A stretch of 29,000 nt of DNA from IMG/VR virus record IMGVR_UViG_3300030102_004342, positions 1 to 29,000 of that record; one strand, 5' to 3'. Under the pieces are notes generated by a model. The model had not been told where the DNA came from, did not search any database, and worked only from the letters and a program-made list of their open reading frames with translations. Source of the stretch: a virus. How positions within the stretch are numbered: the stretch's first letter is position 1; the number at the start of each line of letters is the position of its first letter. This document shows positions 1-29,000 of this stretch, piece after piece. A program made the position numbers and the translations under genes.

Positions 1-3000
1 ACTGGATTACCACATGAAACACAAGCAACACATTTTGTCCTAAAATCAACGGATGCAACTATTAGGCAGACTATGGATAATTTTCCTTATAAAATACTTC
101 ATTGTGGTTATGGTTATGGTGCTGATTCAAGCAGTTATTATATTTATACCGATGCACCTTGGAATACATTTACTGGTTATCCTAACACCCTAGTAAGTAT
201 GCAAAATGTTCCGGGTTGCACAAGTACGGGCGGTGTCGGTAAGATATATTGGTCTGATGCCTATATTGATTTACACACCCCCGATGCAAGTTTATCAACT
301 ACAACCATTTTTAACAACACAACACCATTCAATATACCTAGTGTAAAAAATAGAGCAGCACATGCCGTTTGGATGCGGGATTTGACACAATCTCTTTGGT
401 TCAAAAAGATGTTTGGTAGGATAGCCGAGCAACCTGCTGTATCGGGAACACTACAAACACCATTACCTGTTAACACATATAGCGGAACATTCCATAGCCA
501 AGGTGTATTGACTGCAATAACACACACATCGGCAATAGCAACAACTTTTGCTAATGGAGGTGTTGCGGAATTAGTGCATCCTAGTGGTGAAGTTGACTCT
601 TTTTGTTTTGGCAGTATTAGTAATAACTCGGGTAAAATACAACTAAACAACTGCAAATTTATTACTCATAATTATGCAACTATTTTTGGCTTTAGCGGAG
701 GTGTGCCAACAATAAATCTTAGGACAATTAGTGATGACTTTAACCATATTTGGGTTTTGTGGGCGGATATGCGAAACGATGGTGAAGCCAATGCTGATGG
801 TAAAGAAAGAGTAAATAAATTTGGCGCACTTTATCCCACACCTGATAATTATAGCGTATCTCTACAATTTACTGACCAGGTAAATATAGACGGCTCGCCT
901 ATGGACTTTGTTGATTTAAAGGTAGGGTATGACTTAGACATTTGGGAAATGGATGCGGAAAAAGAACCATACACCGAGAACGCATGGAGCACTTTAGGCT
1001 CTAATAGTCACCACGAGCCCGATATGCATGAATGGGAAAGAAAGGCTGGGTCATTTCTAATATTTGATTTTTCTAAATTTTTCAATCTAAACACCGAGGC
1101 AAACGGTGGCAAATGTAACCAAATCACCGGTAGAAGAAAAACTTTAGGCGACTTAGTTATTGATACCGAGGGTCATCCGGCACTAATTGATGATTATTGG
1201 CAAGAAGTTGTTGCATCACCTAAAAACTTAGGATTAGGGCGAACAGATATTAGTAATCACCCCAATTGGTATAATTTCTTCAGTTCGGGTAGCAATTTAG
1301 CGGCAAACACAGGTGTAGCACCGAATATAACAAACACTCCGCAAGGTTCTACCGACTTGAAACTAGAGGACACTAGCGAATTCCCATCATCAGGGTTTGG
1401 GATGATTGAATTAGAAAGAGATTCGGCACAAGGTGGCACAAAAGAAAGAAATTTGTTATTTTTCACATGGTTTGCTAAAGATGACTCGACAAATACTCTA
1501 CAAAGGGTTACTACTTATGACTTAGATGAAACAACATTAACTCAAGAACAAATACTAAGTACAATGTTTTTGTATTATAGGGCTGTTACGGCAACCGGAA
1601 ATGCTTCTTTAGTGCTAGGCACTAACCAAGAATTGATTTATAATGACACAATAAATAACATTACTCGTGGTTATGAAAAAATTATAGTATATTCGGGACT
1701 AAGTGCGCCATTTGCACTACGATTTATGATGAAACTAAACGGCTACATTGAATCTAAGGACAAAGGAACATGGTATATTCACGATGCTATGCGAAGCATG
1801 ATAACTTTAGCAAACACAATTCATCCGTTATCTCTATTTAGATTACCAATAACATTTAGTAAAGTAAATATACCGATTACACGGAGGATGACCACTACAC
1901 AACAAGCCGTTAGTGTAGCCTCTAGATTATACAAAAATACCTCCGGAAATGTGTTAGATTGGGATAATTTTGGTGGTGTTGTTGATGTTAGAGGTAAATC
2001 GCTACTGCAGGGAATAGTCGAGATTGCCGAAAAAACTCGTGTAGGAACGGAAGGTTCTACAACTATTTTTACTTATACTACGGGTAGAGATGGTAAATTG
2101 GATTTACGGCCTGCGTATTCATCCGGTTTTGTATTTACACGCGATAATCTTAGCGTTTCAAACATAAGTGGGACACCTACTGCTAACATATCAAATGTTA
2201 GAGTTTTCTATAATAATGGTTCATCATTTGTAGATTTCCCTGCCGGAACGGCTGGAACCGAATCAAAGTGGAAGTTTGTAGATGTTCCTACGGTTAGGTC
2301 GGATAAAGAAGCATCACAAATAGCGAAAAGAACCTACGAACAATCAAGGCAAACAAATGTTGTCATTGATGCACAATTTATTACTCAAGCAACCGAAACG
2401 GATAAAATGCTTTTCGGTGCTCGCTATGGCTACATAGCCGACCCCGCATTTAGAACATCTTCACCCGTTTTACAAGGCGCACAAACATGGACTTCCTGGT
2501 ATAATGGTGTTCATTATAGTGGAATACAAAATAGGTTAGATGGTAATGTAACTTGGGCGGGTTTTGGCACTGTAAATGCATATAATAAAAGGGTATATGG
2601 CGAGGAGGTAACTAACTATACCAACGACCCACAAAGTAATTTTGGCGGTGCTTGTTCATTCCCTACCGGTGATGTTGACGCAGCGCAAAACTATGGGTGG
2701 ATAGGTGATAAATCTGTTACAAATGCCGTCGAGATAGTCCATATACCAAAGGGAATGCCAAAGTTTAGTGATGCACACGGACATGAGCTTCGTGTTAGCA
2801 TACAATTAGCCGATACCTACGAAGTTGCTGATGGAAAAGACATAGAGGATATGGAATTCTTCATTACACTTGCCGATATTGACCCATCATTTACACCCGG
2901 TACTACAACGGTAGGCTCTAATCACGATTTCCAACCTTTGACTATTAGCGAGGCTTATCCTGATACAACGGATTTGAAGTTTAAACACAGCGGGTTTTAC

Positions 3001-4449
3001 GAGTTAGAAATACCATCTGGCTATTGGTCAACCGCAACAGGTAATGAAAGGATTGTAGTTTCTATTGATGCCGAATACCTACGGGCTTGTTTACGACATA
3101 GAATGGGTAGTAAAGTAGGTTCACCGGTATGGGGTAACGCTGTGCAAATACCGGGTGCTCCATTGATAGGGGGAACGGCTGATGCTGGGTCATCTTTCCC
3201 TATGGGCGCAAGAATACAACCAAATATACCAACAGGGCGCGATGCACCTTGGTATCATGCACCGAGAATAGTAGTAGTAGATGACTTAAATTTTTACCCG
3301 TCAACAAAAGTTACCTATACGGATTCCGGTATAGGTATCAATACACCAACTGCATTTTCGATAAAGCAGGTAAAGTGGGATGCTACCGAGCGGGCGCATG
3401 ACAAAGTTACTTTGGTTTTAGAAAGGGATGAATCAAAGGCTTTAGAGGGTCTTGCATCATATATATTGCCCGAAATAAATAAGGGTAGAACACCCGGAAC
3501 AATACCTAGTAGACCCACACAACCTCCAAGAACAGGTAATGGCGGAGGGTCAGGTGATACCGGATATAGACCTGAAGTTCCACCACAAGTAGGGCCAATA
3601 GGAACACCTCATAGCGCACCATACGATTTGGGCTCACAACCTAATAAAACTATACAAAATAATCCTGACGGCGTTAGAAACCAGCCCGGTGCTGGCGTTG
3701 ATGCTGGAAGTACTACAATCAGCGGACAATTGTTTTCACAGGCAAATGTAGGAATAAACAATACAACTGTGGATTTGGTTAAAAGGGCTACGGGCAACAT
3801 GGACTTCCATAGTCAATTCGGTAACAAAGACGGTGAATTTAACTTTTTGGGGCAAAAGAAAAAAGGTGCTCCGGCACAAACAACCCGCGAATTAGATGGT
3901 ATTGACTGCATTTGGGATAAAAACAGGGGTGCGGTATTTTCTAGCGAAGGCGCAGTTTTTCCAGGCATTACTGACGCCGATTCAATAACTAACCCATCAC
4001 AAATACACTCCCATTCACTACGAGCCACCGTTCCTAGCGATGTGATAGGACAAAAAGTAGTTTTAAGTGGTCGTGTGTTTACGGAAGCCGATTTACAGGG
4101 GGCGGATAAAAGCGGAATTAGTCTTCTAGTAAAATTAGAGTGTATAGAAACCGGGAGTAGCATACAAAAGTTAGTGGCTATTTACGGTGGTGATACCGCT
4201 CTATCTACCCAAGAATCACAAAGTATTGATATTACACTTATAAGTGGCGAATTAGACGGTGCTAATGTAGAGGGTAATACTATCAAAGCGACTTTAAAGC
4301 GTCAAGCAAACTTTGCTACCGATACATCACAGTTCCATTCTTTGATACTAAACAATCTAAAAATGAAGTTTGTGCGTAGTGCGGTCTCGGGCAGGTCAGA
4401 TTCATATAGATTCTTAGGACTAAAGAGTGGTGGGGTGAGGGGTAATTGA
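1..4449 (+). CDS. Giant virion protein, probable tail hub/baseplate-like (5' end outside window)
   Basis: The frame is open from base 1, so the gene begins before the window; the first ATG at 73 is not a convincing start. At least 1482 residues are encoded. The protein is rich in Thr, Ser, Asn, Gly and aromatic residues, with no signal peptide or membrane segment seen, as expected of a virion protein. A central part (about residues 560-860 counted from the ATG) has the alternating beta pattern and an NVRVFY segment followed by a helical ASQIAKRTYEQSR stretch, which reminds me of tail hub (gp27/gp44-type) proteins. A Pro/Gly-rich linker around residues 1145-1215 separates a C-terminal beta-rich domain that could be a carbohydrate-binding or fibre-attachment unit. 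It is the only large + strand gene and ends in a 4-base overlap with the next gene. The structural role is likely; the exact tail component is inference. Confidence 0.6.
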   Translation, partial: TGLPHETQATHFVLKSTDATIRQTMDNFPYKILHCGYGYGADSSSYYIYTDAPWNTFTGYPNTLVSMQNVPGCTSTGGVGKIYWSDAYIDLHTPDASLSTTTIFNNTTPFNIPSVKNRAAHAVWMRDLTQSLWFKKMFGRIAEQPAVSGTLQTPLPVNTYSGTFHSQGVLTAITHTSAIATTFANGGVAELVHPSGEVDSFCFGSISNNSGKIQLNNCKFITHNYATIFGFSGGVPTINLRTISDDFNHIWVLWADMRNDGEANADGKERVNKFGALYPTPDNYSVSLQFTDQVNIDGSPMDFVDLKVGYDLDIWEMDAEKEPYTENAWSTLGSNSHHEPDMHEWERKAGSFLIFDFSKFFNLNTEANGGKCNQITGRRKTLGDLVIDTEGHPALIDDYWQEVVASPKNLGLGRTDISNHPNWYNFFSSGSNLAANTGVAPNITNTPQGSTDLKLEDTSEFPSSGFGMIELERDSAQGGTKERNLLFFTWFAKDDSTNTLQRVTTYDLDETTLTQEQILSTMFLYYRAVTATGNASLVLGTNQELIYNDTINNITRGYEKIIVYSGLSAPFALRFMMKLNGYIESKDKGTWYIHDAMRSMITLANTIHPLSLFRLPITFSKVNIPITRRMTTTQQAVSVASRLYKNTSGNVLDWDNFGGVVDVRGKSLLQGIVEIAEKTRVGTEGSTTIFTYTTGRDGKLDLRPAYSSGFVFTRDNLSVSNISGTPTANISNVRVFYNNGSSFVDFPAGTAGTESKWKFVDVPTVRSDKEASQIAKRTYEQSRQTNVVIDAQFITQATETDKMLFGARYGYIADPAFRTSSPVLQGAQTWTSWYNGVHYSGIQNRLDGNVTWAGFGTVNAYNKRVYGEEVTNYTNDPQSNFGGACSFPTGDVDAAQNYGWIGDKSVTNAVEIVHIPKGMPKFSDAHGHELRVSIQLADTYEVADGKDIEDMEFFITLADIDPSFTPGTTTVGSNHDFQPLTISEAYPDTTDLKFKHSGFYELEIPSGYWSTATGNERIVVSIDAEYLRACLRHRMGSKVGSPVWGNAVQIPGAPLIGGTADAGSSFPMGARIQPNIPTGRDAPWYHAPRIVVVDDLNFYPSTKVTYTDSGIGINTPTAFSIKQVKWDATERAHDKVTLVLERDESKALEGLASYILPEINKGRTPGTIPSRPTQPPRTGNGGGSGDTGYRPEVPPQVGPIGTPHSAPYDLGSQPNKTIQNNPDGVRNQPGAGVDAGSTTISGQLFSQANVGINNTTVDLVKRATGNMDFHSQFGNKDGEFNFLGQKKKGAPAQTTRELDGIDCIWDKNRGAVFSSEGAVFPGITDADSITNPSQIHSHSLRATVPSDVIGQKVVLSGRVFTEADLQGADKSGISLLVKLECIETGSSIQKLVAIYGGDTALSTQESQSIDITLISGELDGANVEGNTIKATLKRQANFATDTSQFHSLILNNLKMKFVRSAVSGRSDSYRFLGLKSGGVRGN

Positions 4450-4631
4450 GTGATTGGTGTCTTAGTGTAGGTAGTGGAGATATAGCGCACGAAACCTGTT
4501 TACCACCACATGCTTTTTTTATAGCGATTGCAGCGGAATGCTTTTTCTACATACTATGTGGTATGGGATTGTGGAAAGCCTTTAAACTACGACAACGAAA
4601 AAAACTCGAGATTTACCGGTCAAAGCCATGA
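4446..4631 (+). CDS. Small single-span membrane protein coupled to the structural gene
   Basis: The TTG start lies inside the stop of the giant virion gene (TTGA overlap), which suggests translational coupling. The 61-residue product has one hydrophobic span at about residues 23-43 (AFFIAIAAECFFYILCGMGL), preceded by a short Cys-containing segment and followed by a strongly basic tail (KLRQRKK). By the positive-inside rule the tail should be cytoplasmic. The last 12 bases overlap the end of the convergent ERCC4 nuclease gene. Size and topology would suit a holin-like, envelope-associated or virion-anchoring peptide, but no family is recognised. The non-ATG start and short length leave some doubt that it is expressed. 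Confidence 0.5.
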   Translation: MSDWCLSVGSGDIAHETCLPPHAFFIAIAAECFFYILCGMGLWKAFKLRQRKKLEIYRSKP

Positions 4632-5336
4632 ATCCCCCGCCTGTTTAATTAATCGAGCCCTTTGGCGCGTTATACCGCGTGTTTTCATTAACTCTTTCTG
4701 TGTCATTTTTTTATCAAGTATTTTCGAGATACTACCGTATTTAGTTAGTAATTCTTTTGCGATTTGAGGTGTAACGCCTTGAATACCACACAGCATCCTT
4801 ATCCGAGGGTCGGTTTCGCTAGCAACTCCGCTAACCAAAAATGGGTTGTTGTTGCGTTTACCTTGCATAGTCATTTGTGTGTGATTAGTCTTGACCCACT
4901 CTACGAAGTCGTTCATAGTTTCTACCTGCATGAATTTAATTTTAGGGTGACGAATATGAAGTGTTTCTTTAAATTTCTTGATTGTGGCGTGCATTCTAGC
5001 AATCTGCATAGCCATATCTTTTCTTGTAGGTCTACGACCTGGGATATAGGGCTTTAGAGTAGTGCCATATACAACGAGAAATGCTACATCAAAGTTGTCG
5101 GCTAAATCGGTAAGTTGTGCATGCACGGTTCTTGTACGACCATGACCCATGATTGAATGGTATAAGTCATTGATTTCTTTTGCCTCCATACCCCAACCTA
5201 AATCAGGTATAGTATAATCTCCAACCGGTAGTCTATCTACCTTCGCTAATCCCTTTTCATCTAAACTACTATCTCCCAGTGCCATCAACAATTTGTTGAT
5301 GACTTTCGGGTTTTCTCTATCATCAATGTGTAGCAT
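4620..5336 (-). CDS. XPF/ERCC4-type structure-specific endonuclease with C-terminal HhH
   Basis: The 238-residue protein opens with a beta strand and DDRE (residues 5-8), then LPVGDY (about 37-41) and EAKEINDL (about 51-58), which occupy the place of the GDxnERKx3D active-site signature; the Arg of ERK is Ala here. Residues 180-235 form a tandem helix-hairpin-helix with the pattern GIQGVTPQIAKELL and TRGITRQRARLI. This is the nuclease plus (HhH)2 layout of XPF/Mus81/Hef, without the helicase part. Such enzymes cut branched DNA at flaps, forks or recombination intermediates. The last residues are DSWL, one of four Trp-Leu ends in this virus that may bind the clamp. A TTG at 5339 directly precedes the chosen ATG. 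It follows the zinc-ribbon gene by 27 bases and probably shares its promoter. Confidence 0.88.
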   Translation of the reverse strand: MLHIDDRENPKVINKLLMALGDSSLDEKGLAKVDRLPVGDYTIPDLGWGMEAKEINDLYHSIMGHGRTRTVHAQLTDLADNFDVAFLVVYGTTLKPYIPGRRPTRKDMAMQIARMHATIKKFKETLHIRHPKIKFMQVETMNDFVEWVKTNHTQMTMQGKRNNNPFLVSGVASETDPRIRMLCGIQGVTPQIAKELLTKYGSISKILDKKMTQKELMKTRGITRQRARLIKQAGDSWL

Positions 5337-5363
5337 CAAAAAGCGTTATAAGAAATTGCGTCT

Positions 5364-5540: not shown

Positions 5541-5580
5541 TAGGATTACCTCCTCGCCACTACTATACCACATTAGGGTG

Positions 5581-5589
5581 TATAAATTC
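5581..5589 (-). promoter_or_regulatory. TATA box for the zinc-ribbon/ERCC4 unit
   Basis: On the + strand this reads TATAAATTC, giving GAATTTATA on the coding strand. It lies exactly 40 nt before the ATG at 5540. A start of transcription about 25 nt downstream would leave a leader of some 15 nt that holds the GGAGG ribosome-binding site. Confidence 0.65.
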
Positions 5590-5593
5590 TTAC

Positions 5594-6785: not shown

Positions 6786-6794
6786 TATTAACAT
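6786..6794 (-). promoter_or_regulatory. TATA box for the zinc-ribbon/primase unit
   Basis: TATTAACAT on the + strand differs by one base from the window's recurrent TATAAACAT box and is 24 nt from the ATG at 6761, predicting a leaderless transcript. Its first bases touch the 3' end of the Cas4-like gene. Confidence 0.55.
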
Positions 6795-7636
6795 ATTTGT
6801 GTAGGGTCTTCGGCTAACCCCATAGTCTCCGGTTCACATTGAATCACATAATCACAATATTGAGTGCAAAAGTAATCATTCCACTTTATAGGAAAGTCCT
6901 TGTTTTTTAGGTCGGCTACCGTCTTTTCATAGGCCTTCATAAAAGCATTGACGGTTCGTAGCGATAGTGGCTCCATAACAAACATGCCCTGTGTTAACCC
7001 CGTTCCAACTACTTTCTTCTTTTGTCCTTCTAATGTGGCTAGTAACTTTTCATCGGTAGCGTCAGGTGCTATGTATAAAAAGTGCGTAGGGCGTGGGAAC
7101 TCCGTAAATTCTAACATATAGGTATAGAACGCTAACTCCCTACGGGTGCGGGACATTTTACCGCTATTGAAGTTACCGGTTTTCAATTCTACCAATACTA
7201 TTTTGCCATCTTCGGTTTCTAATAGACCATCCATCGCACCTACCAAGTAAACATCTAACCGTTCATCATACACGGTAATCTTTTGCTCGGCCATTAGCAA
7301 TTTGTATTTACCAATTTTTTCTTCTAACATTGACAACAAATCGCCCATGACTAAGTAGCCATCATCTTCGTTGACCTTTTCTTCAACAGCCACTTTGATA
7401 GTTTCCTCCCGAACCACCGGGTCATTAGGCGCAACAATTAGAGGCTCCATGACTTTGTGTATCTTTGTGCCTCGTATCATAGATTCTGTGCGTGGTGGTC
7501 TGATGTCCGGTAGGCCAACGAATCTCCACCAATACTTACGGGGACATTGGTTGTATAACATGAATGAAGATTTGCTAATCTTTAGCGATACATCTTCGTT
7601 TACCTCGTGCGGGTTATAGGTGGTGGGTTGGGTCAT
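6788..7636 (-). CDS. Cas4/RecB-like PD-(D/E)XK nuclease with Fe-S cysteines
   Basis: The 282-residue protein follows the RecB/Cas4 order: SKSSFMLYNQCPRKYWW (residues 22-38, first Fe-S cysteine C31), RGTKIHKVMEP (RecB-family GxxxH-like motif), VGAMDGLLE and VLVELKTG (the catalytic D and ExK), RRELAFYTYML (QxxxY-like helix with Arg/Glu at the usual Gln), and a C-terminal cluster CTQYCDYVIQC supplying the remaining cysteines. Cas4-like enzymes are Fe-S exonucleases that resect DNA ends; archaeal viruses carry them outside CRISPR loci. No cas1, cas2 or repeat array is present here, so a role in viral replication, recombination or end processing is more likely than spacer acquisition. It is a single-gene unit with its own leaderless promoter, directly downstream of PolB. 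Confidence 0.87.
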   Translation of the reverse strand: MTQPTTYNPHEVNEDVSLKISKSSFMLYNQCPRKYWWRFVGLPDIRPPRTESMIRGTKIHKVMEPLIVAPNDPVVREETIKVAVEEKVNEDDGYLVMGDLLSMLEEKIGKYKLLMAEQKITVYDERLDVYLVGAMDGLLETEDGKIVLVELKTGNFNSGKMSRTRRELAFYTYMLEFTEFPRPTHFLYIAPDATDEKLLATLEGQKKKVVGTGLTQGMFVMEPLSLRTVNAFMKAYEKTVADLKNKDFPIKWNDYFCTQYCDYVIQCEPETMGLAEDPTQIC

Positions 7637-7681: not shown

Positions 7682-9940
7682 TTAAAGCCAATCTACTGCT
7701 CCAACACCGTTTAGAGCATTGATTATTGGTTGTATATTGAACCCCGCAACCTCATAATATGGGTTTACTTTAGCAACGATAAACTTCTCCGCTATGTTGC
7801 GGTAGCCTATTTCACATATTCCCTCGATGTCCGATGGGTCGTCAAATGCGATATAATCTCCATTGGATGCAATAGTTGACAAAAAGTTATCGCCCTTACG
7901 ATAGCCTTTGCCTAGCACTTTGTTAGCCCACGCTGCGCCAGCCCTAACCTCACCTAGCACTTTGTATTCATCTAAGTTTTGTTGTAGCCGTGCTTGTATG
8001 CACAATTCCGTAGGGTCAACCGTTTTCTTAACTACGCCATCAATCATTTCAACCAATGTATCAGTTATTTGCGATTCGGGAACATCATACAATAACGAAG
8101 TCAACATATACTCCATGACCTTTTTCATCATAGAAGGCAATCGGGTTTGTTTCATCTCTATACCTTTGACATATAGTTTTGGTTCATGGTGCTCACCATC
8201 AGTCCATGATGTTAGACCAGCATAACGGTTTTTAGCCATGATAACAACTGATTGACACCACTTTTCAAACTCGGTTTCTATGGGGTGCATATCTTGGTTA
8301 ATGTTGTTGATATGCATAGAGCCATATTCGGGACTTTCACATCTAACGAAAACGGAATCCGTATGACCATATATGACCTCCATACCACGCTTTTCACATT
8401 CTTCACGCAACCGATATAGTGTTTGACGGGAGGTAAAGGTGATTGCTGCGGCAACATCGGGGTGATACAATCCATACTTAGAATCACCGGCTGCACCATA
8501 CATAGATGCAACGAGCGATTTAGTGGCGTATTGCATGGCGTCATACATAGACCTTTCATCATCGGTCTTGGCCGCTTTCATTAGTGCTTTGTATTCATTT
8601 CTAAGTTCTGTCATCCTATCCATCTGTCTAACCAAATGACCCCTTTCACCTAGTTTGAAGCGTGAACCGTTACCACAATCGACACCGTTAGGGTCAAGTG
8701 TTTCCCACGATATGTTGTGTAGTGCGGCATTAGAGTGATACATCGCCTTTATATCCATGATGGCTACATTTCTGTAAACACCTTTCTTTGGCTCCATAAT
8801 ATCTGCACCAGCATAGTCCACCTTTGCGAATCGTGGTTTAGAAGGTATTTGCCAATCTACATCTGGGTCATTGATAGTTAGGCATGTGAATAACCGAGTA
8901 ACAAACGGTGTAGTCTGAATATCACATTGAACAATGTGTTGTATAGCGAGGTGATGATTGATAGCATTGACCATTTTATCTAATCGTGGCAATAATTCTA
9001 CATCTTGGATATTGTAATCAATGTATGTGTGAAAATCAGTATAGTATGTATCATGGCCGTCATCGAGTGGTAGTTTTTTATCATCCAACAATACTTCGGC
9101 AACGGTATCTAACTTTTTGTTAGGCAATGCTCCGTTTTTGATTTGCCACAAACGGGACACGGCGAGCATCAAATCTATAACCAATCGACCACCAATAGGC
9201 TGAGCCCAATCGCTATAATCATATCTAATGATGCGTGATGAGCCACCGCATAACTTTTTGGGGTCAATGTTGTTTTTCTTACATCGTTCAATCAATACTC
9301 TACAATCAGCATTGACTACATTCCAGCCGGTTAGTATATCGGGGTCGCATTTCCTCATGTGTTCGATAAAGTGTAGTAGCATATCTTTCTCGTTTGCGAA
9401 TATCAGTATAGGTGCGCCAGAAATTTTTTTGGTAGAAATTTTGTATGGGTGGTTTATAAACTCAAGCGTATCTATGGAGGCTAGACTGTTAAAGTAGTTT
9501 TGGTCTGGGTCTAAAGCCCAAGTCCACATAGCATTTTTGAAATTGTCATACACACTTATAACCGTAATCATTTCACTATCGGCTGTCCACTCCATATCCC
9601 AATACCAGATACGGTGTTCGTAATTAGGTATTTGTCCGTTGTCCTTAACATAAAGGGATAATGCACGGTTAGTCCAAGGGATATTGCATTCCCATGTTTC
9701 GGAAAATTTATCTTTTAGTTTGCCGACCTCGGCTGGGTCGCCCATAATAACTTTAGTTAGCGATTCGCCATACACACCACGAAAACCTGGTTCTTTAGAA
9801 TAAGCGGGAATCCGGCGTGCGTCATCATCTCGTAGGAAGCCAAATGGGTGATAGTCTTTGATTTTAGTTTCAACTCTATTGCCGTCATTATCACGATGTC
9901 TTACTAAGACGCCACGCAAACCATTCCGCTCTACTATCAT
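7682..9940 (-). CDS. polB: Family B DNA polymerase with 3'-5' exonuclease
   Basis: The 752-residue chain has a normal PolB length. Exonuclease motifs are YWDMEW (Exo I), TGWNVVNAD (Exo II region) and YNIQD (Exo III). Polymerase motifs are MDIKAMYHSNA (motif A, DxxxxY), KSLVASMYGAAG (motif B) and YGHTDSVF (motif C). In motif C the first Asp of the usual YGDTDS is His, while the second, metal-binding Asp remains, so activity is expected. The C-terminus GVGAVDWL resembles the PCNA-binding end of archaeal PolB (type QVGLxxWL), though the Gln is absent. The frame starts one codon earlier with TTG at 9943; the ATG at 9940 has a TATA box 23 nt away, indicating a leaderless message. This is the replicative polymerase of the element. 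Confidence 0.96.
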   Translation of the reverse strand: MIVERNGLRGVLVRHRDNDGNRVETKIKDYHPFGFLRDDDARRIPAYSKEPGFRGVYGESLTKVIMGDPAEVGKLKDKFSETWECNIPWTNRALSLYVKDNGQIPNYEHRIWYWDMEWTADSEMITVISVYDNFKNAMWTWALDPDQNYFNSLASIDTLEFINHPYKISTKKISGAPILIFANEKDMLLHFIEHMRKCDPDILTGWNVVNADCRVLIERCKKNNIDPKKLCGGSSRIIRYDYSDWAQPIGGRLVIDLMLAVSRLWQIKNGALPNKKLDTVAEVLLDDKKLPLDDGHDTYYTDFHTYIDYNIQDVELLPRLDKMVNAINHHLAIQHIVQCDIQTTPFVTRLFTCLTINDPDVDWQIPSKPRFAKVDYAGADIMEPKKGVYRNVAIMDIKAMYHSNAALHNISWETLDPNGVDCGNGSRFKLGERGHLVRQMDRMTELRNEYKALMKAAKTDDERSMYDAMQYATKSLVASMYGAAGDSKYGLYHPDVAAAITFTSRQTLYRLREECEKRGMEVIYGHTDSVFVRCESPEYGSMHINNINQDMHPIETEFEKWCQSVVIMAKNRYAGLTSWTDGEHHEPKLYVKGIEMKQTRLPSMMKKVMEYMLTSLLYDVPESQITDTLVEMIDGVVKKTVDPTELCIQARLQQNLDEYKVLGEVRAGAAWANKVLGKGYRKGDNFLSTIASNGDYIAFDDPSDIEGICEIGYRNIAEKFIVAKVNPYYEVAGFNIQPIINALNGVGAVDWL

Positions 9941-9963
9941 CAATAATAGTATATCCGTTACGG

Positions 9964-10329: not shown

Positions 10330-11274
10330 TCATAACCATTCGGCTAATGTTCTTTGTTGAACGAGATTCAAAGCATGCCAATGCTCTTTCATTTGCTTTG
10401 GGTCGCCGTTGTAAAATATCAAAACATTCTGGTGCATTTTTCCAATCTTACGATTGTATTCCCACTGCTTCGCTACCCTAAGTGCTAATGTTCCTACCAC
10501 ATTTTGTAGTATAATCTCGTTGAACAATCTAAACCCATGTACTTCACATGCCTCGATTGTCTTTGAAACAAAATTACATAGATAACCTGTTTTATCTCTA
10601 TAATCACCCACGACTACGGCCACAAAGGTATTCTCGTTCATACTAGCCATAGCCTTGTTCATAATAGAGGCATACATCTCATCGAATTTGTTTGGCGACA
10701 TATTAGATATGTCATCTGGATGGTCGGAATATACTTCTAAATCACCATAGGGAGGGCATGTTAGCATAAAGTCAAAATCATCACCCAACTTAGGCAATTG
10801 TTTGTTAGAATCTCCTTGAATCCAATGACAGGTTGCACCGTCTTTTCCTCCTATATCAGCAAATTGCATACGGTTTGCATCTACTTGTTCCTGCCGTAAT
10901 TCTATACCTACATAGTCTAAGCCCATTTGGGATGCTACTATACCACGAACAGAACCTCCTGCAAAGGGGTCGAGAACCATTGGCCGTGTCACCCCATCGG
11001 TGCGTGATTTCTTAGGAACAAACCATGTGTAAAGCAATTCGCAAAGTGCTGGGTCAAAGATTGAAGTGTCGCTTTGTGTAGCAACCTGAACATCTCCGGT
11101 TTCATCCATCCACTCTTTGATATTGAAAGCCCGTGCCGACCTACCTACTTCGGATTCTATACCCAACGCTTTCCATTTGCGCTTACGATTTTGCCACCTG
11201 TCGGTTGATGTATTGATAATCGAGAAGGGGTTATCCATGAATCGTTGTTGTAGTCCGTGAGGGTTTTTAGCCAT
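10330..11274 (-). CDS. Site-specific DNA methyltransferase (N4-cytosine or N6-adenine type)
   Basis: The 314-residue protein has the SAM-binding motif LDPFAGGSVRG (about residues 96-106), GIELRQEQVDANR after it, and the catalytic LTCPPY (about 178-183), which is the (D/N/S/T)PPY signature of amino-methyltransferases. The order motif I then motif IV is seen. No restriction endonuclease is adjacent, so it is an orphan enzyme, probably protecting viral DNA or marking it for replication. Its extreme C-terminus QRTLAEWL fits the PCNA-binding consensus QxxLxxWL very well, suggesting that it travels with the clamp and methylates nascent DNA. The target sequence cannot be read from the protein. A leaderless promoter precedes it. 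Confidence 0.9.
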   Translation of the reverse strand: MAKNPHGLQQRFMDNPFSIINTSTDRWQNRKRKWKALGIESEVGRSARAFNIKEWMDETGDVQVATQSDTSIFDPALCELLYTWFVPKKSRTDGVTRPMVLDPFAGGSVRGIVASQMGLDYVGIELRQEQVDANRMQFADIGGKDGATCHWIQGDSNKQLPKLGDDFDFMLTCPPYGDLEVYSDHPDDISNMSPNKFDEMYASIMNKAMASMNENTFVAVVVGDYRDKTGYLCNFVSKTIEACEVHGFRLFNEIILQNVVGTLALRVAKQWEYNRKIGKMHQNVLIFYNGDPKQMKEHWHALNLVQQRTLAEWL

Positions 11275-11344: not shown

Positions 11345-12232
11345 TTAGTAAAATGGAGTGCTGGTAGCCATTAATTCTTTTGCATCCTCCCAAAATAATT
11401 CCTGCCATTCACTAGGACATGACTTTATTGGCCGCATACCAGATAACCATAATACATCATTTGGTTGAATATAGGGCTTCAACTTTGCTGAATAAAACGG
11501 GTCTAAAACATCACCAGAATGCGTTGTTTCGTATTGCCAGTGGTGATAGTCCCCCGTTGCCCTAATCATCGACAGAACCGGCTTTTCTGCTAACAGAAAC
11601 GGGTCGGTATATTGTTGGGTCATGTATTGAATCATAAAGTCAGTATTGTGTTGTATATTATCATAGTCGGCCAGGTCGGAAACGCACACAGCAACAACCT
11701 CTACATCGGTTCTTTTTAGAACGGTAAGACCTGTCATAACACCGGCTGCGGTTATACCCGAGCCCGTTGGCACTAATACTCTTTTACAATCCATCGGTAG
11801 GTTCATGCATTGGAGTGCGGTGTCATGTATTGCTCTTTTAGAATCCCATTTAACACAACCACCTAATTCCTTAGCCTTTGCCCTAGCCCTAGCACGATAT
11901 ACGGAGGCATAGCCCGGAAACACTTCATGTATAGTAGCACCCATAGCCGCAGCATAGTTTGTTGCTTCAGTGCGCTTTTTTCTACGGGGAACAAAGATGT
12001 GTGCAGGAACACCTGCCCTTTGTGCCGCCCATGCAACATATATCTGCATTGCCGAATATGAAGCACAACCCACTATCATAGGTTCGCCCGGCTGTTCGCT
12101 GGCCATATCTAAAAACTGTCTAACCTTTGCGCCAGATGGATTATCCAAATTCGTATAGCACGCCAAATCCTCACGCTTTAACCAATAGTTAGAGCACCGT
12201 TCAACGGGAGTTATACGGGTATGATTCCACAT
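11345..12232 (-). CDS. PLP-dependent enzyme, ACC deaminase/cysteine-desulfhydrase/threonine-synthase fold
   Basis: The 295-residue protein belongs to fold-type II PLP enzymes: LKREDL (about 19-24), SGAKVRQF with the likely Schiff-base Lys (about 34-41), the asparagine-loop region GCASYSAMQ, and the phosphate-binding loop PTGSGITAAG. The KREDL plus GAKxR arrangement is closest to ACC deaminase and D-cysteine desulfhydrase. The start codon overlaps the clamp gene's stop (TGATG), so it is tied to the replication unit of the OB-fold, Sak4 and clamp genes. That placement is odd for a metabolic enzyme. It may act on free amino acids as an auxiliary metabolic gene or in base hypermodification, where phages use PLP enzymes. 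The substrate is unknown. A GTG at 12235 is an alternative start. Confidence 0.78.
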   Translation of the reverse strand: MWNHTRITPVERCSNYWLKREDLACYTNLDNPSGAKVRQFLDMASEQPGEPMIVGCASYSAMQIYVAWAAQRAGVPAHIFVPRRKKRTEATNYAAAMGATIHEVFPGYASVYRARARAKAKELGGCVKWDSKRAIHDTALQCMNLPMDCKRVLVPTGSGITAAGVMTGLTVLKRTDVEVVAVCVSDLADYDNIQHNTDFMIQYMTQQYTDPFLLAEKPVLSMIRATGDYHHWQYETTHSGDVLDPFYSAKLKPYIQPNDVLWLSGMRPIKSCPSEWQELFWEDAKELMATSTPFY

Positions 12233-13062
12233 CACAACACTCCGGCCTGATAAACAAATCCACAGTCACCAAAATCTAACACCATTCTGATGCCCTGCCT
12301 TTCTTCTCTAAAGTCTAAGAAATGTATGATACAATTTCCGCCCATGCCAGCAAAGACATTCTCCAATCCACCCTCGAAAGCCCATTCAAACGGCTTTTGG
12401 TCTGGTTGAGTAATATCTATTCTATCTGTGGTATGACCCTTTAATTCATCACCAACGCTAACAGTTATTCCTTTATCATCGACTGAAATAATGTATCGGT
12501 TTAGTTTCTGACCATTCATGTTATCACATCTAAGAATCTCATACATACGGTTGCTGTCAACACACCATTCATACATAGGCTTCCTAACCGTGCCGTCTGC
12601 CATTTGATAACCAACAAAGTTTTTATTGGTCTCGTCAAACACAAACCGTTCCGATAACGATTGCGACTTCGAGCCCCAATCAAATATGGTTTCCTGTGAA
12701 TGTGGAAATGCCAAACCGTCTGGTGATGCAGTTAGAGTAGTAGTTTTGCTACCCGATTTGAATATTATTTTACCATGTTGCGTGTCAATAGTTAGTGGAG
12801 ATGAATGCGAGCCTAATACGCCCAACACTCTCGGTATGTCCGGTATAGGTATAGAATAGTCATCTTCCTTACTTTCTAATATTGGTGCAATAAACTTTGA
12901 TAGACTTGTTTTACCGTCACGCACTAAAGATGTGGTGCTAACTGTATTATCGCTTACTCGCAATAAACACGATGTTACCTGTGATTGCGGTTTGCCTCCA
13001 ACGCATTGTTGTCTTTGTGTTCGCCTAAGTAAGTTTGCTAATGTCGATGTATCAATTTTCAT
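12232..13062 (-). CDS. pcn: Sliding clamp, PCNA-like
   Basis: The 276-residue protein has the length and pattern of a two-domain clamp. The N-terminus MKIDTSTLANLLRRTQ is a helix as in PCNA; PIPDIPRVLGVLG is followed by short strands (LTIDTQHGKIIFKSG, TTTLTAS), and the second half repeats the layout with FAGMGGNCIIHFLD near the end. Identity to cellular PCNA looks low. It should encircle DNA as a ring and bind PIP peptides; four viral proteins here end in possible ones. GGAGGG lies about 9 bases before the ATG. It overlaps both neighbours (ATGA upstream, TGATG downstream) within the OB-fold/Sak4/PLP unit. The adjacent RFC unit supports the assignment. Confidence 0.75.
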   Translation of the reverse strand: MKIDTSTLANLLRRTQRQQCVGGKPQSQVTSCLLRVSDNTVSTTSLVRDGKTSLSKFIAPILESKEDDYSIPIPDIPRVLGVLGSHSSPLTIDTQHGKIIFKSGSKTTTLTASPDGLAFPHSQETIFDWGSKSQSLSERFVFDETNKNFVGYQMADGTVRKPMYEWCVDSNRMYEILRCDNMNGQKLNRYIISVDDKGITVSVGDELKGHTTDRIDITQPDQKPFEWAFEGGLENVFAGMGGNCIIHFLDFREERQGIRMVLDFGDCGFVYQAGVL

Positions 13063-15476: not shown

Positions 15477-16397
15477 CTATCGCCCCACTGGACTACATAA
15501 TGTTCTTACAAACTCCATCAATGCTATGTGTTCATTTACTCCCGCTATCAAATCCCTTTCGGCCTGTATTGAAGCGTTAATAACTTTTATTTTGGATTCT
15601 ACATTCGAGGGATTATCCATAGCAAATTCAAACACGCTACGAACCATTGAACGAGGGTCGGTAGCATAACGGGTTAATTCTTCGTATGCAGACTCCATGT
15701 TCTTTTCTTTAAAACAAAGTCTAAGCACCTTTGCGCTATCCGTGCGGTTTGTAGTTAGAGATAGAATAAATGATTCTCTTTCATCACCCATCGTTGATAA
15801 TGTCTGCAAAGCACCCAAACAGTTACGCAGGTCTCCCAAATGGCTATGTGCAATTACACTCAGTTCGTGGTCGGTGACTGGCATCGACTCTTTGGCCGCA
15901 ACACTAGCCATACGCTTCAAACAATCATTTATTGATATAGGCTCGAATGTTCTAACCTGACACCGTGACTGCAACCAAGGACTAACTAGATTTAAGTCGT
16001 TGCATGTTAGTATAAAGTAACACGATGCTTCTTCTATGACGCCCTTTAGAGCATCCTGTGCCTGCCGAGTAATTCTATCGGCCTCGTCTAAAAAGATGAT
16101 AACCTCATTTACACCGGAACGAGAAAGTGGTATCACATATTCTTCGATAAATTCTATGCCCCGTGTTTTCTTTGATGAGGCATTGAATTGATGTATCTGG
16201 AATCCTAAAGTCTTTGCTATTATTTTTGCGAGCGTTGTTTTGCCTGTTCCTGGTTCACGAGAATGGAAGATATAATTTTGCATAGGGGATTCGCCCTTTA
16301 GTATAGGTAAAAACTCCGCAACCAAATGTTGTTGGCCTACAAAATCATCGAGTGTAGTAGGTCTATATGTCTGCCACCAGATATTTTTACTAATCAT
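15477..16397 (-). CDS. rfcS: Replication factor C small subunit (clamp loader)
   Basis: The 306-residue AAA+ protein starts with WWQTYRPTTLDDFVGQ, the classic RFC box (YRPxxLxDxVGQ). It has Walker A REPGTGKT (47-54), Walker B IIFLDEAD (100-107), sensor 1 FILTCND (128-134), and the SRC motif (144-146) with the arginine finger. It is shorter at the C-terminus than cellular RFCS (about 320-330). It should load the viral clamp encoded in the next unit; no RFC large subunit is seen, so it may form a homo-oligomer or use the host large subunit. Its ATG overlaps the stop of the 38-residue zinc protein (ATGA), with GAGGAG as ribosome site inside that gene. Confidence 0.94.
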   Translation of the reverse strand: MISKNIWWQTYRPTTLDDFVGQQHLVAEFLPILKGESPMQNYIFHSREPGTGKTTLAKIIAKTLGFQIHQFNASSKKTRGIEFIEEYVIPLSRSGVNEVIIFLDEADRITRQAQDALKGVIEEASCYFILTCNDLNLVSPWLQSRCQVRTFEPISINDCLKRMASVAAKESMPVTDHELSVIAHSHLGDLRNCLGALQTLSTMGDERESFILSLTTNRTDSAKVLRLCFKEKNMESAYEELTRYATDPRSMVRSVFEFAMDNPSNVESKIKVINASIQAERDLIAGVNEHIALMEFVRTLCSPVGR

Positions 16398-22615: not shown

Positions 22616-22632
22616 ACCTATCCTATTTATTT

Positions 22633-23733: not shown

Positions 23734-23736
23734 GGA

Positions 23737-24042: not shown

Positions 24043-24364
24043 TGCCATTCCTCCGTTGCTCCTTCTTTTTTGCTAAGTAACATTTGCCACAAAGTTTCTT
24101 ACCTTTAGGCACTGCTACCTCGCAGCGCTGACACACCGGCTGGTCGTCTGGTGTTGCGCTTTCATCGGGAGATTCAATTATGTTTAGGCTAAGAAGTGAT
24201 TGTATAATAACTTTTTGCTTCGTGATTTCTTCCTTTGTCATACCATAATGCCTGCTATATTCCCAGTTAATAGGGGGGTGCATGTCTACTATATACTTAA
24301 GACACATGCGTAATTCGGCATTCTCTAATTTAAGGTGGCGAATCTGTTTGTTCTTAAAAGACAT
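24035..24364 (-). CDS. Coiled-coil plus zinc-ribbon protein (109 aa)
   Basis: The N-terminus is helical with heptad-like spacing (KQIRHLKLENAELRMCLKYI). The C-terminus has CQRC at about 78-81 and CGKC at about 92-95, a zinc ribbon, followed by a basic tail (KKKEQRRNGNA). This layout suits a dimeric nucleic-acid-binding factor. It begins 2 bases after the previous stop in the DUF1281 unit. No specific family. Confidence 0.72.
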   Translation of the reverse strand: MSFKNKQIRHLKLENAELRMCLKYIVDMHPPINWEYSRHYGMTKEEITKQKVIIQSLLSLNIIESPDESATPDDQPVCQRCEVAVPKGKKLCGKCYLAKKKEQRRNGNA

Positions 24365-24366
24365 AA

Positions 24367-25832: not shown

Positions 25833-25882
25833 AGTTTTTGTCCTCCTATAATTTTGTGTCCGCTTATAGCCGCCACAGTCAG

Positions 25883-25889
25883 TATATAG
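25883..25889 (-). promoter_or_regulatory. Candidate TATA box for the 25832 unit
   Basis: TATATAG on the + strand, 50 nt from the ATG at 25832, would give a leader of about 25 nt with GGAGG. A second candidate, the palindrome GTTTATAAAC at 25897-25906, is 67 nt or more away. Neither spacing matches the two usual classes. Confidence 0.35.
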
Positions 25890-25917
25890 CGTGCCGGTTT
25901 ATAAACTTTTTGATGGG

Positions 25918-26151
25918 TCACTGCTTAGCCCCCCATAGACTAGTATCGCCTCGTTTACAATGCGTCTCCGTAAATCGTTCATCCCTACGCATTATTCGAG
26001 TTAGTTGGCTTGGCATCGGAAGTTTAGCATTAGAACGATATCTTACTCGTGATTGGTTTCTCAACCTATTTAGCAACTCCCGGCTGCTCAGCCGTAACAT
26101 TTCACCGTCAGGTTCAGGTGTAGATAGTATGTCATGCACTCGATTGCACAC
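25918..26151 (-). CDS. Basic winged-helix-like protein, start uncertain (77 aa or longer)
   Basis: From a GTG at 26151 (GGGAG 4 bases before it) the product has a winged-helix-like pattern, NRVHDILSTPEPD, LSSRELLNRLRN, PSQLTRIMRRDERF, and ends GDTSLWGAKQ. The frame stays open upstream and reads as plausible protein (FRPLPRKRWEIYV) back into the end of the 98-residue gene, yet no ATG, GTG or TTG exists there. Either the GTG is used, the gene begins at a rare codon, or a frame change joins it to the gene upstream. It is the last gene of the ArdC unit. Confidence 0.5.
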   Translation of the reverse strand: MCNRVHDILSTPEPDGEMLRLSSRELLNRLRNQSRVRYRSNAKLPMPSQLTRIMRRDERFTETHCKRGDTSLWGAKQ

Positions 26152-26189
26152 ATATATCTCCCACCGCTTTCGGGGAAGTGGTCTAAACT

Positions 26190-26486
26190 TTACTCCTCTT
26201 CTAGTGATTTCAACCCCGCCTTTACTCTTTTCTTGTATGCAAATGCATGCTCTAATTTTGTGAATTGTATGTAGATTCCACCTTGCTTCAAAGCGTAAGT
26301 ATTTCTTGGCATCAATGAACCAAGTATAACATCTTTTTCGTAGTGACTCCAGTTACGCCATCTGATATTCATGTAGTAAGAATCATCCACAAAAGAAGAA
26401 CGAATTATCATATCATGATACCGAGAGGTATTCCCCCAGTTTGCTGATAGTCCGACATCGTAAGGTTCATTCGCCAATGAACTCAC
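26190..26486 (-). CDS. Unknown small protein (about 98 aa)
   Basis: The frame starts at a GTG (26486) with a TTG at 26477 as alternative; no ATG is well placed, and the start overlaps the end of the 30-residue gene by 11-20 bases. The product has aromatic strands (YYMNIRWRNWSHYEKD, GGIYIQFTK) and a basic helical end. No family recognised. It sits near the end of the micro-gene chain. Confidence 0.58.
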   Translation of the reverse strand: MSSLANEPYDVGLSANWGNTSRYHDMIIRSSFVDDSYYMNIRWRNWSHYEKDVILGSLMPRNTYALKQGGIYIQFTKLEHAFAYKKRVKAGLKSLEEE

Positions 26487-26559
26487 CTACCTTTGGCATC
26501 TTGGGTGCTTCGTCAGCCCATATCGTTCCCTGCATATAGTAAATAATAAAGTACTTCAT
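26467..26559 (-). CDS. Micro-gene, 30 aa
   Basis: Read directly from the sequence: starts MKYFIIYYMQGTIWADEA and ends VGEFIGE. AAGGAG lies about 9 bases before the ATG, which overlaps the stop of the 20-residue gene as ATGA. The N-terminal half is hydrophobic and aromatic, possibly membrane-seeking. The coupling and ribosome site support expression. Confidence 0.5.
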   Translation of the reverse strand: MKYFIIYYMQGTIWADEAPKMPKVGEFIGE

Positions 26560-26618
26560 TCTTCTTCACTCCTTTCATCAGGCCGAGGCCAATAAGGTTC
26601 TGTCCAATCGGGAATCAT
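26556..26618 (-). CDS. Micro-gene, 20 aa
   Basis: Read directly from the sequence: 20 codons beginning MIPDWTEPYWPRP and ending in acidic residues. GGGGAGG is 7 bases before its ATG, and ATGA overlaps join it to the genes on both sides. It is unusually short; it may be a real peptide or a translational relay that carries ribosomes to the next start. Confidence 0.42.
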   Translation of the reverse strand: MIPDWTEPYWPRPDERSEEE

Positions 26619-26719
26619 TCTTCTTCCTCCCCAAACATCTCTATGATTGCACTGTGTGCTTCTTTAGGACTTAGGCGTGGGAAGTATTTCTTCCACAATG
26701 CGTTCCAATCACGAGCCAT
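26615..26719 (-). CDS. Micro-gene, 34 aa
   Basis: Read directly from the sequence: begins MARDWNALWKKYFPRLSP and ends in four Glu residues after a short helix. It overlaps the upstream 99-residue gene by 11 bases and the next gene by ATGA. A weak GGTGA lies 5 bases ahead of the ATG. Like its neighbours it ends in an acidic tail whose codons form the ribosome site of the next gene. Confidence 0.5.
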   Translation of the reverse strand: MARDWNALWKKYFPRLSPKEAHSAIIEMFGEEEE

Positions 26720-27008
26720 TTTGTTCACCCAAAATATCTTCGTAAAGCGACATGAAGTTCTTTAGCAGGTTTTGGCCTGTGCCTTTGATGCCAAAGTATT
26801 TCTTTACTGGAGTTACTTTCCACATGCGGGTCGGTTTGATACCGGCCTTACACCATAGCGTCAAATCACGCTTAGTAACTATAAGATTCCAAATGGCTAA
26901 TCCCATTGACTTACCATTGACATTCATTACGGCTTCGCCGTTAGCACGAGCTTCGTTGTCGGCCATAAGTTGTTCAAAGAACGGGGAGTTGGTATCGTAG
27001 GCCATCAT
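26709..27008 (-). CDS. Conserved-looking small protein (99 aa)
   Basis: A soluble protein with an N-terminal helix (NSPFFEQLMADNEARANGEA) and a compact central part, AIWNLIVTKRDLTLWCKAGIKPTRMWKVTPVKKYFGIKGTGQNLL. I recall similar small phage proteins with a KKYFGIKG element, of unknown function. The ATG at 27008 overlaps the preceding stop as ATGA and has GGAGG 4 bases away. It is in the ArdC unit. Confidence 0.68.
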   Translation of the reverse strand: MMAYDTNSPFFEQLMADNEARANGEAVMNVNGKSMGLAIWNLIVTKRDLTLWCKAGIKPTRMWKVTPVKKYFGIKGTGQNLLKNFMSLYEDILGEQNGS

Positions 27009-27136
27009 TCTTCCTCCTCTACTTTAATTAGGGAGATGGTGCGAGCCCTTTCCTTAATCATTTGTCTTTGTCTTCGTAGTTTACCTGATGGATGCTTTAC
27101 ATGCCAACTCTTTGCATTTTTCTTTCTTGTGTTCAT
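27005..27136 (-). CDS. Small basic protein (43 aa)
   Basis: Read directly from the sequence: MNTRKKNAKSWHVKHPSGK followed by an Arg/Lys-rich helix (LRRQRQMIKERARTISL) and a Glu tail. The strong positive charge suggests nucleic-acid binding. It is joined by ATGA overlaps to both neighbours, and AGGAGG precedes its start. No family recognised. Confidence 0.6.
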   Translation of the reverse strand: MNTRKKNAKSWHVKHPSGKLRRQRQMIKERARTISLIKVEEEE

Positions 27137-27360
27137 TGTTTGTTCCTCCTTTCTATCTCTTTCTGGACTATTTGTTCATCCTGTAATTTTGAATAAACTT
27201 GCATCCAGTGGAGTAATATTTCCCTTGCTTCGCTTCGGGCTATAAAAAATTCATCGGCTAAATACGGAGCTGCGCCGAACATATTGACGACACCCGACTC
27301 CTTTAGGTTGTGCAGATAAATATAGTGGTTCATGTATTCTTCTTTGATTTCATCAGTCAT
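27133..27360 (-). CDS. Small phage-type conserved protein (75 aa)
   Basis: The segment YLHNLKESGVVNMFGAAPYL plus EAREILLHWM resembles a widespread family of short proteins in tailed phages (ESGxxNMFGAAPYL ... A..LL.WM); its role is unknown to me. The frame reaches 27381, but GGAGG fits the ATG at 27360, which overlaps the ArdC gene by 8 bases. The rest is a charged helix. Confidence 0.72.
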   Translation of the reverse strand: MTDEIKEEYMNHYIYLHNLKESGVVNMFGAAPYLADEFFIARSEAREILLHWMQVYSKLQDEQIVQKEIERRNKQ

Positions 27361-28348
27361 CTTTCTTTTCCTCCTCGTCAAACTTTGTGTCGAGAATGTA
27401 ATCCATAGCCCGCTGTGCTTTTGAACCGGCTCTAATAATCATCTTTGGGTCGGAGTCTAAACGCTTTAGCCAATGACCTAAATATGATACTTGGTTTTCT
27501 AGTCCCTCCTCTAATGCTTCGCTGGGTAGTATGTTGAAATGCTTACAAAGCAAAGACGCACCTAACTCCGCAACTAATTCTTCAAAGGCATACCTTTCAT
27601 CACCACGCATACCAAACTCTCTATCACATCTTTTCTTGTGTCCGGTGGCATGGGTGCATTCGTGGAATAAGGTTGGCATATATGCAAAGCCACTTGGAAA
27701 TGCTTCCTTGACCGGCATATTTACCCTGTCATCACCATAGGTATAGTATGCCCTATGGCCGACTTCGCTAAATTTGATACCCTCTTTCTTCATCCATTCG
27801 TGCATCAATTTTTCGGCGTTTATTTCTTCCTCCGTAAACTCCGGTGTTTCGATTTCGTCTCCATCGGGTCTTGGTGGTAGGGGTATGTTAGTCTGGCTTC
27901 GGCCAAAGACCTTGTGCCACTTTAGAATAGGAATGCGCTTTTCTTGCTCGGGGTCGTCTTTGTCCTTCACTTTTATCATGGTAAAGAACACGACTGTATG
28001 AGCCGATTCGCCCTTTTGAACGCCGTAGTATTGATTAGCCTTCTTGTATGGTTTGCCGTCATTGGACTCTACTAAGTCATACTCGCCTTTTTCGATAGCA
28101 TGTTTTCGGCCAATCTCCGACCATTGTTTGAAGGATGCAAATTCAATGTCACCCGATGTATAGCCCAAGATAAACTGATTGATACCACGATATGCTTTGC
28201 CAGAAACAATATTGTGTGCAAGACCAGTCTTACATTTCGATGTGTCCCAGGGCATTAGCCAAGGTTTGTTTCCTTCTTTTAGTGCCTTCGTTACGATGTC
28301 AGCCATCTCTTTTACTATTTGGTCTCGCTTTAGTGATTGTTTACTCAT
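27353..28348 (-). CDS. ardC: ArdC-like anti-restriction protein (ssDNA-binding plus zincin metalloprotease)
   Basis: The 331-residue protein has the ArdC N-terminal domain (KPWLMPWD, SGKAYRGINQFIL, YYGVQKGESAHTVVFF), which binds single-stranded DNA in characterised members, and a C-terminal zincin domain with HECTHATGH (H229, E230, H233) and the downstream helix YAFEELVAELGA supplying the third ligand. ArdC proteins protect incoming plasmid or phage DNA from restriction. Here it is the first gene of its unit, so it is probably made early, which fits the apparent lack of GATC and ACGT sites and the orphan methyltransferase. A TATA box lies exactly 40 nt from the ATG. Confidence 0.88.
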   Translation of the reverse strand: MSKQSLKRDQIVKEMADIVTKALKEGNKPWLMPWDTSKCKTGLAHNIVSGKAYRGINQFILGYTSGDIEFASFKQWSEIGRKHAIEKGEYDLVESNDGKPYKKANQYYGVQKGESAHTVVFFTMIKVKDKDDPEQEKRIPILKWHKVFGRSQTNIPLPPRPDGDEIETPEFTEEEINAEKLMHEWMKKEGIKFSEVGHRAYYTYGDDRVNMPVKEAFPSGFAYMPTLFHECTHATGHKKRCDREFGMRGDERYAFEELVAELGASLLCKHFNILPSEALEEGLENQVSYLGHWLKRLDSDPKMIIRAGSKAQRAMDYILDTKFDEEEKKDD

Positions 28349-28586
28349 GGTTGGGTTGCCCCCTATGTTTGCTTATTATGTTTCGGTTTATAAACATATC
28401 TATTGGTCTACTTACTGCGTTAGAATTTTCTGCAACAATTTTCGCCAAGAATATTTTAGGCGATATATCTGCATAGAATTGTGGGTTGTTGGAGGTAAGA
28501 AAATAGTAAAAAATAATCTTATCACCTCCTTTTGAGAAAGTGATGCGTATGCACCTGAATTCTGTATTAGGCCTCATCCGTGTCAT
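28341..28586 (-). CDS. Doubtful 81-codon frame over the ArdC promoter
   Basis: The ATG at 28586 is 5 bases after the preceding stop, with GGTGAG 4 bases ahead, which favours coupling. Against it, the frame spans the well-formed ArdC promoter and its composition is not distinctive (GGDKIIFYYFLTSNNP and so on). It contains at 28521-28534 a strong ribosome-binding sequence without a normal start codon behind it. It may be non-coding leader or intergenic sequence. Confidence 0.28.
   Translation of the reverse strand: MTRMRPNTEFRCIRITFSKGGDKIIFYYFLTSNNPQFYADISPKIFLAKIVAENSNAVSRPIDMFINRNIISKHRGQPNHE
28389..28397 (-). promoter_or_regulatory. TATA box for the ArdC unit
   Basis: TATAAACAT on the + strand, exactly 40 nt from the ATG at 28348, with a GGGGG ribosome-site-like run 10 bases before the start. 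It lies within the doubtful 81-codon frame. Confidence 0.65.
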
Positions 28587-28591
28587 TTAGC

Positions 28592-29000
28592 TCACCAAAA
28601 AGAAACCGAGCCATCTTCATTGGTGGCAAAACTGCTAAATCCGTTTTCTCCCATGTAGGTAGCAATCTCGTTGCGCCGTTCTATTTCTTCTTGTCGGTCA
28701 ATCTCATACTGCTCACTATTGTAATAAGCTTCATACTCCCGTGCGGCTCTTTCTCCGGAATGCTCGTCAAGGACAACGCCAGGCGCATGTAGAAAATCAG
28801 TTGCTAAATTAATAACCTTCAAGGTGTGTTCCGTATATGAAGGGTAACTATCAATCCTTATGGTGAAACCGTGAGATGGAAGCATTGAAAATATTTTACC
28901 TTCTAACTTTTCAAGCCAACCTTCGAACAACTTCTGATACTTTTTTGTTCTCGCTTGACCCTCGCCATGCCAGTCCTCCCAATTAAGTCTATCTTTAATA
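28592..29000 (-). CDS. Unknown acidic protein, 5' end beyond the window
   Basis: A TTG at 28930 gives 112 residues, but the frame stays open to the right edge and reads as normal protein (RLNWEDWHGEGQARTKK), so the gene very probably starts outside the window. The visible part has a short beta segment (GFTIRIDSYPSYTEHTLKVI) and a long, highly charged helix (REYEAYYNSEQYEIDRQEE), ending GSVSFW. No family recognised. Confidence 0.65.
   Translation of the reverse strand, partial: IKDRLNWEDWHGEGQARTKKYQKLFEGWLEKLEGKIFSMLPSHGFTIRIDSYPSYTEHTLKVINLATDFLHAPGVVLDEHSGERAAREYEAYYNSEQYEIDRQEEIERRNEIATYMGENGFSSFATNEDGSVSFW

Follow-up and report, generated by a model that had tools for sequence, protein, structure and literature searches.

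The window analysed here is the first 29,000 bases (bases 1-29000; GC content 40.8%) of the 61,305-base viral record IMGVR_UViG_3300030102_004342, which is labelled G000 in our analysis. Its replication genes lie on the minus strand and include a family B DNA polymerase (PolB; 7682..9943), which served as the query for finding and placing relatives, and an adjoining PD-(D/E)XK (Cas4-like) nuclease (6788..7636). A clamp-loader small subunit (15477..16397, minus strand) has the archaeal RFC small subunits 2chq and 1iqp as its best solved relatives, and an ERCC4-domain nuclease with HhH (4620..5339, minus strand) resembles those of archaeal tailed viruses. The region at 12232-13062 was considered as a sliding clamp and rejected for want of Pfam support. 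A pyridoxal-phosphate-dependent enzyme of the PALP type (PF00291; 11345-12235, minus strand), a metabolic function unexpected in a virus of this kind, is located between the replication genes and the methyltransferase. The structural gene set of G000 includes terminase, portal and tape measure proteins, and a calcineurin-like phosphoesterase is also encoded; its candidate major capsid protein (MCP) gave no match at all.

Two kinds of gene in the record bear on restriction. A DNA N6-adenine/N4-cytosine methyltransferase is encoded at 10330..11274 (minus strand; PF01555 motif region, phrog_12517/phrog_498) and has a shorter paralogue at 33829-34269 of the record (plus strand); the window enzyme is not tied to GATC or ACGT. 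At 27353..28348 (minus strand) lies an ArdC-like anti-restriction protein combining ArdcN and zincin-like metallopeptidase domains (PF08401, 1.4e-21; PF18818, 4.5e-33; phrog_7245), which by its domain matches may provide a possible second anti-restriction layer.

Neither GATC nor ACGT occurs on either strand of the window by direct count. These are the only absent words, the other 254 of the 256 tetranucleotides all being present. Base composition predicts 104.5 copies of each, dinucleotides predict 90.5 GATC and 94.8 ACGT, and trinucleotides predict 96.9 GATC and 57.6 ACGT; these expectations are Markov estimators, not Burge's. The remaining 32.3 kb of the record (29001-61305) also contains neither word, which gives observed/expected counts of 0/181 for GATC and 0/196 for ACGT over the whole 61-kb record (about 180-196 expected each). 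The first-pass annotation had reported both words as wholly missing, and the Markov count of palindromic 4-mers bears this out for window and full record alike, with zero and zero observed against window expectations of 57.6-104.5, far above zero. When a palindromic site is called avoided at an observed/expected ratio < 0.1 with an expectation > 15, both GATC and ACGT are avoided sites in G000.

A synonymous-codon shuffle of the 58 predicted genes, which keeps the proteins and the codon usage, predicts 150±10 GATC and 143±9 ACGT where the real genome has 0 of each. Both words are at zero in all three codon phases, and their one-mismatch neighbours GATA, GATG, CATC, GCGT, TCGT and CCGT occur at normal or raised counts. 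Since the words are missing from every codon phase, the shuffle predicts many and the neighbours are normal, it is the DNA word as such that has been lost, independently of codon and protein content.

Other words are depleted in the same record. AGCT and GTAC, which had been noted as scarce, are indeed so in the window (6 observed vs 66-79 expected, and 13 vs 88-97, respectively), as is CGCG, which had been overlooked (5 vs 34-43); all three stand at 9-15% of the trinucleotide expectation. CTAG had been listed as common and is actually depleted in the window, with 42 observed vs 73-123 expected, or about a third of the trinucleotide expectation. Among longer sites in the 61-kb record, GGNCC is found at 10/125 observed/expected and GGYRCC, a site of the BanI class, at 0/49; the related sequences GGAACC/GGTTCC and GGAGCC/GGCTCC are present. 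The 6-bp palindromes of the window amount to 193/495 observed/expected, with 31 of 64 absent. In the record, 18 absent 6-bp palindromes have no embedded GATC or ACGT, and these include CATATG (30 expected), CTATAG (25) and ATCGAT (19).

We compared G000 with 59 IMG/VR contigs carrying a related PolB (42-91% identical), taking as testable any 4-bp palindrome expected at least 8 times. In these relatives 247 of 929 testable palindromes are absent, and 49 of the 59 contigs lack three or more. Two control sets give much lower figures: 16 of 1044 palindromes are absent from 72 random IMG/VR contigs picked with an arbitrary pattern of 15 bases, and 17 of 980 from 79 contigs around the PolB of T4-like marine cyanophages. 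Control contigs lack at most two words each, and none of full length lacks three. Trimming all contigs to 6 kb leaves the contrast in place. The loss is confined to palindromes almost entirely, with four cases of a missing non-palindromic tetranucleotide in the 59 relatives vs 247 palindromic ones. Depletion of 6-bp palindromes is common to every relative, regardless of which 4-bp words it lacks, with a median of 0.32 of expectation vs 0.66 and 0.70 in the controls. Two side observations concern individual contigs. AGTA/TACT is wholly absent from L010 and L011 (17.5 and 15.1 kb; 31 and 27 expected), is the only well-supported non-palindromic loss, and may point to a recognition site that is asymmetric. 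In contigs without CGCG and AGCT (L016, L018, L020, L025 and others), GCGC exceeds its expectation two- to three-fold, for instance 185 vs 54 in L018.

Across the family, in records spanning 21-68 kb, the set of missing words is specific to the lineage. GATC and ACGT are lost in both G000 and G001, its nearest relative. G005 and G007 lack CCGG and CGCG and carry ACGT at expectation; G012, G014, G017 and G025 lack six words each; and G032 and G023 lack nine of the 16 palindromes (eight with no copy and one present once). Per-lineage loss spans two to nine words, with G016 losing none. On the PolB tree the minimum number of state changes is 4 for GATC, 6 for ACGT, 8 for CGCG, 11 for GTAC and 12 for CTAG. 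Gapped and degenerate sites (CCWGG, CCSGG, GGWCC, GCWGC and GTSAC) also vary by lineage. AATT, ATAT, TATA, TTAA, CATG and TGCA are never eliminated among the PolB relatives. The words that are eliminated, in the PolB family or in a magrovirus-like group described below, all correspond to known Type II specificities: ACGT (MaeII), AGCT (AluI), CCGG (HpaII), CGCG (ThaI), CTAG (MaeI), GATC (MboI), GCGC (HhaI), GGCC (HaeIII), GTAC (RsaI) and TCGA (TaqI). A comparison of PolB genes site by site for the mode of site removal gave no result, the genes being too diverged or the sites too few.

Methylase genes go with kept sites. G016 carries three methylases and has zero eliminated 4-bp palindromes; its cassette (N6/N4 - C5 - N6/N4) lies between PolB and the Cas4-like nuclease gene (L213:13108-17395). 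The same three-methylase cassette adjoins PolB in G018 (L220:289-4784), where a further C5 match makes four methylases; G018 retains GATC, AGCT, ACGT and GTAC and lacks two words, CCGG and CTAG. G035 encodes a C5 methylase and the sole phage Dam-type match (PF05869, E = 1.3e-27, under the TIGR01712 equivalog cut-off), retains GATC and ACGT at 1.18 and 0.87 of expectation, and has lost a single word. In the same clade, G032 and G023 carry neither methylase and are without GATC, ACGT and seven further words. The mean number of eliminated words is 1.0 where a record has at least two typical methylases and 4.46 otherwise (uncorrected permutation p = 0.0014, with the two-methylase cut-off picked after the data were seen). 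The rank correlation between the number of typical methylases and of eliminated words is rho = -0.19 (p = 0.32), and the association comprises only two independent contrasts, both in the same direction (sign test p = 0.5). Given the post hoc cut-off, the non-significant correlation and the two contrasts, we treat the association as directional support. Some records depart from the pattern: no methylase was detected in G024, which retains ACGT, or in the 32.6-kb fragment G030, which retains both GATC and ACGT, and several one-methylase records still lack five or six words. A search of the relatives for D12-class Dam found none. Deazaguanine modification was considered as the reason some relatives retain sites and set aside, as no QueC was found. 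The methyltransferase of the window was likewise rejected as an explanation of the loss. Its orthologues (70-87% identity) occur in relatives without ACGT and also in L007 and L009, where ACGT is present in the expected number. The earlier suggestion that the viral methyltransferase leaves these words unprotected is consistent with our data, but the presence of orthologues on both sides of the ACGT loss makes it uninformative.

The G000 PolB is 27% identical to that of a magrovirus-like contig group, whose members reach 96 kb and in several cases carry a chaperonin, as fits magroviruses. In these contigs 174 of 670 palindromes are absent, and GATC and AGCT are missing in nearly all. A comparison with INPHARED found no close known relatives of G000, and two scans of GTDB genomes for close relatives linked no host and yielded only L264 (NZTP01000016.1, 43 kb), a distant contig of viral origin within a MAG assigned to Altibacter (Bacteroidota). 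L264 has a magrovirus-like PolB, lacks AGCT, GATC and TCGA, and probably comes from an archaeal virus and was binned wrongly. In published work, viruses that carry PolB and chaperonins have been assigned to Poseidoniales (PMC5332604). No Cpn60 chaperonin was found in G000; a GroEL-type (group I) chaperonin occurs in G018 (63274-64719, minus strand), the only such case in the PolB family. Single tRNA genes in two scanned relatives (tRNA-Ala, L218:3777-3852; tRNA-Pro, L248:8011-8083) are a possible host clue. The clamp loader, as judged from its similarity to archaeal RFC small subunits, supports an archaeal host. We infer that the host of G000 is probably a marine archaeon and perhaps a member of Poseidoniales.

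We consider it very probable that this pattern arose as the viruses lost orthodox Type II restriction sites step by step or, alternatively, methylated them with enzymes of their own. Host endonucleases would be the agent. Unmethylated sites in a presumably lytic virus would be cut on entry, variants with fewer sites would be favoured, and some sites would eventually reach zero. Different lineages would encounter different enzymes and lose different palindromes. Where protective methyltransferases were acquired, with specificities presumably covering the sites in question, the pressure would lift and sites could be kept or regained ('erase or mark'). Type II restriction is the best supported reading on four grounds: only palindromes are lost, the sets vary by lineage, codon usage provides no explanation, and relatives with several methylases keep their sites. 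The first-pass annotation had proposed two host restriction activities; selection by Type II restriction stands, and the number two is too few, since G000 shows elimination or strong depletion of at least five 4-bp words, of GGNCC and GGYRCC, and of many 6-bp words. That 6-bp palindromes are depleted across the board counts against the restriction reading, as it would take many more enzymes.

That same depletion, present in all relatives at a median observed/expected of 0.32, is what would be expected of some other palindrome-directed process, such as a structure-specific nuclease or a phosphorothioation-type or other modification-dependent defence, that strips short palindromes generally. We regard such a process as highly improbable, as the PolB family always retains CATG, TGCA and the AT-only palindromes, and its 4-bp sets switch by lineage; a structural process would not pick GATC over CATG. 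It is very improbable that the cutting is done by the viruses themselves, with the virus or co-infecting relatives encoding endonucleases against host or competitor DNA and sparing their own genomes by lacking the sites. Some large DNA viruses, the chloroviruses, do cut competitor or host DNA in this way. Restriction-like nucleases have also been reported in magroviruses (PMC12999244). Genomes without five to nine words would nevertheless need as many specificities within ~60 kb, and among the window genes the nucleases (Cas4-like PD-(D/E)XK and ERCC4) look replicative and have halovirus counterparts.

The losses might also be a by-product of composition, through a host or polymerase bias in codons, dinucleotides or mutation, as haloarchaeal reviewers have raised for GATC (PMC4284463). 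To this account we give next to no probability. Under the Markov and synonymous-shuffle nulls each word should occur some 100-150 times, one-mismatch neighbours are normal while only palindromes vanish, and relatives of similar GC carry different missing sets; composition as the sole cause is refuted by the synonymous-codon shuffle.

A loss of as many as nine of the 16 possible 4-bp palindromes lies far outside the range of both control sets. It implies that Type II restriction is strong and diverse among the abundant uncultured archaea of the sea. On this reading the missing words could serve as a record of which DNA-cutting enzymes the hosts possess; they predict host enzymes and methylation marks and could help assign viruses to hosts. 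The idea that they form a host fingerprint is plausible for G000. We are evenly divided on a stronger claim, namely that the missing set is a heritable lineage barcode of the restriction enzymes of uncultured marine archaeal hosts (ten or more 4-bp specificities of Type II between them) and that family members switch between erasing and methylating by gain of the PolB-adjacent cassette. The methylase-bearing relatives offer natural experiments on two ways of meeting the same defence.

Among known viruses, G000 shares features with two archaeal groups. The magrovirus-like contigs have a PolB homologue (27%) and the same palindrome erasure. Magrovirales genomes measure 90-110 kb, whereas the G000 record has 61,305 bases and its near-full relatives 55-68 kb (completeness not certified). 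G000 differs from Magrovirales in size and in chaperonin and PolB lineage, its PolB belonging to a separate family; on size and chaperonin we therefore do not place it there. Haloarchaeal viruses including HF1, HF2, BJ1 and His1 are GATC/CTAG-deficient (PMC4284463), and haloarchaeal tailed viruses, like G000, lack GATC and have a Cas4-like nuclease beside PolB. In the Hafunaviridae loci that we checked, HCTV-6 lacks AGCT, CTAG and GATC, and HRTV-25 lacks GATC and TGCA. TGCA, which is never lost in the marine family, is absent from L311 and L312 (Halorubrum tailed viruses 27 and 25; 66 and 85 expected). The marine family adds ACGT, CGCG, CCGG, GTAC, GCGC and GGCC to the words lost and is only distant kin by PolB; with 22-23% identity to haloarchaeal virus PolB and a matchless MCP candidate, G000 falls outside Hafunaviridae.

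Restriction-site avoidance by phages is already known, and the present case is an unusually extreme, combinatorial form of it. Within the limits of the searchable literature, we met no previous description of viruses of marine archaea that lack several palindromes. Rusinov et al. 2018 described avoidance as a feature of orthodox Type II sites in non-temperate dsDNA phages that is relieved by DNA modification (PMC6286503). As in their phages, palindromic Type II sites are completely eliminated here; relief comes with a hydroxymethylase in some coliphages (PMC6286503) and would come with methylases in the present family, as the direction of its two independent contrasts suggests. What is unusual is the number of words lost, the differing sets within one family, and the sister viruses that mark sites instead of erasing them: eliminated sites made up ~7% of Type II site-genome pairs in that study, whereas here they make up 27% of testable 4-bp palindromes, with up to nine per genome.
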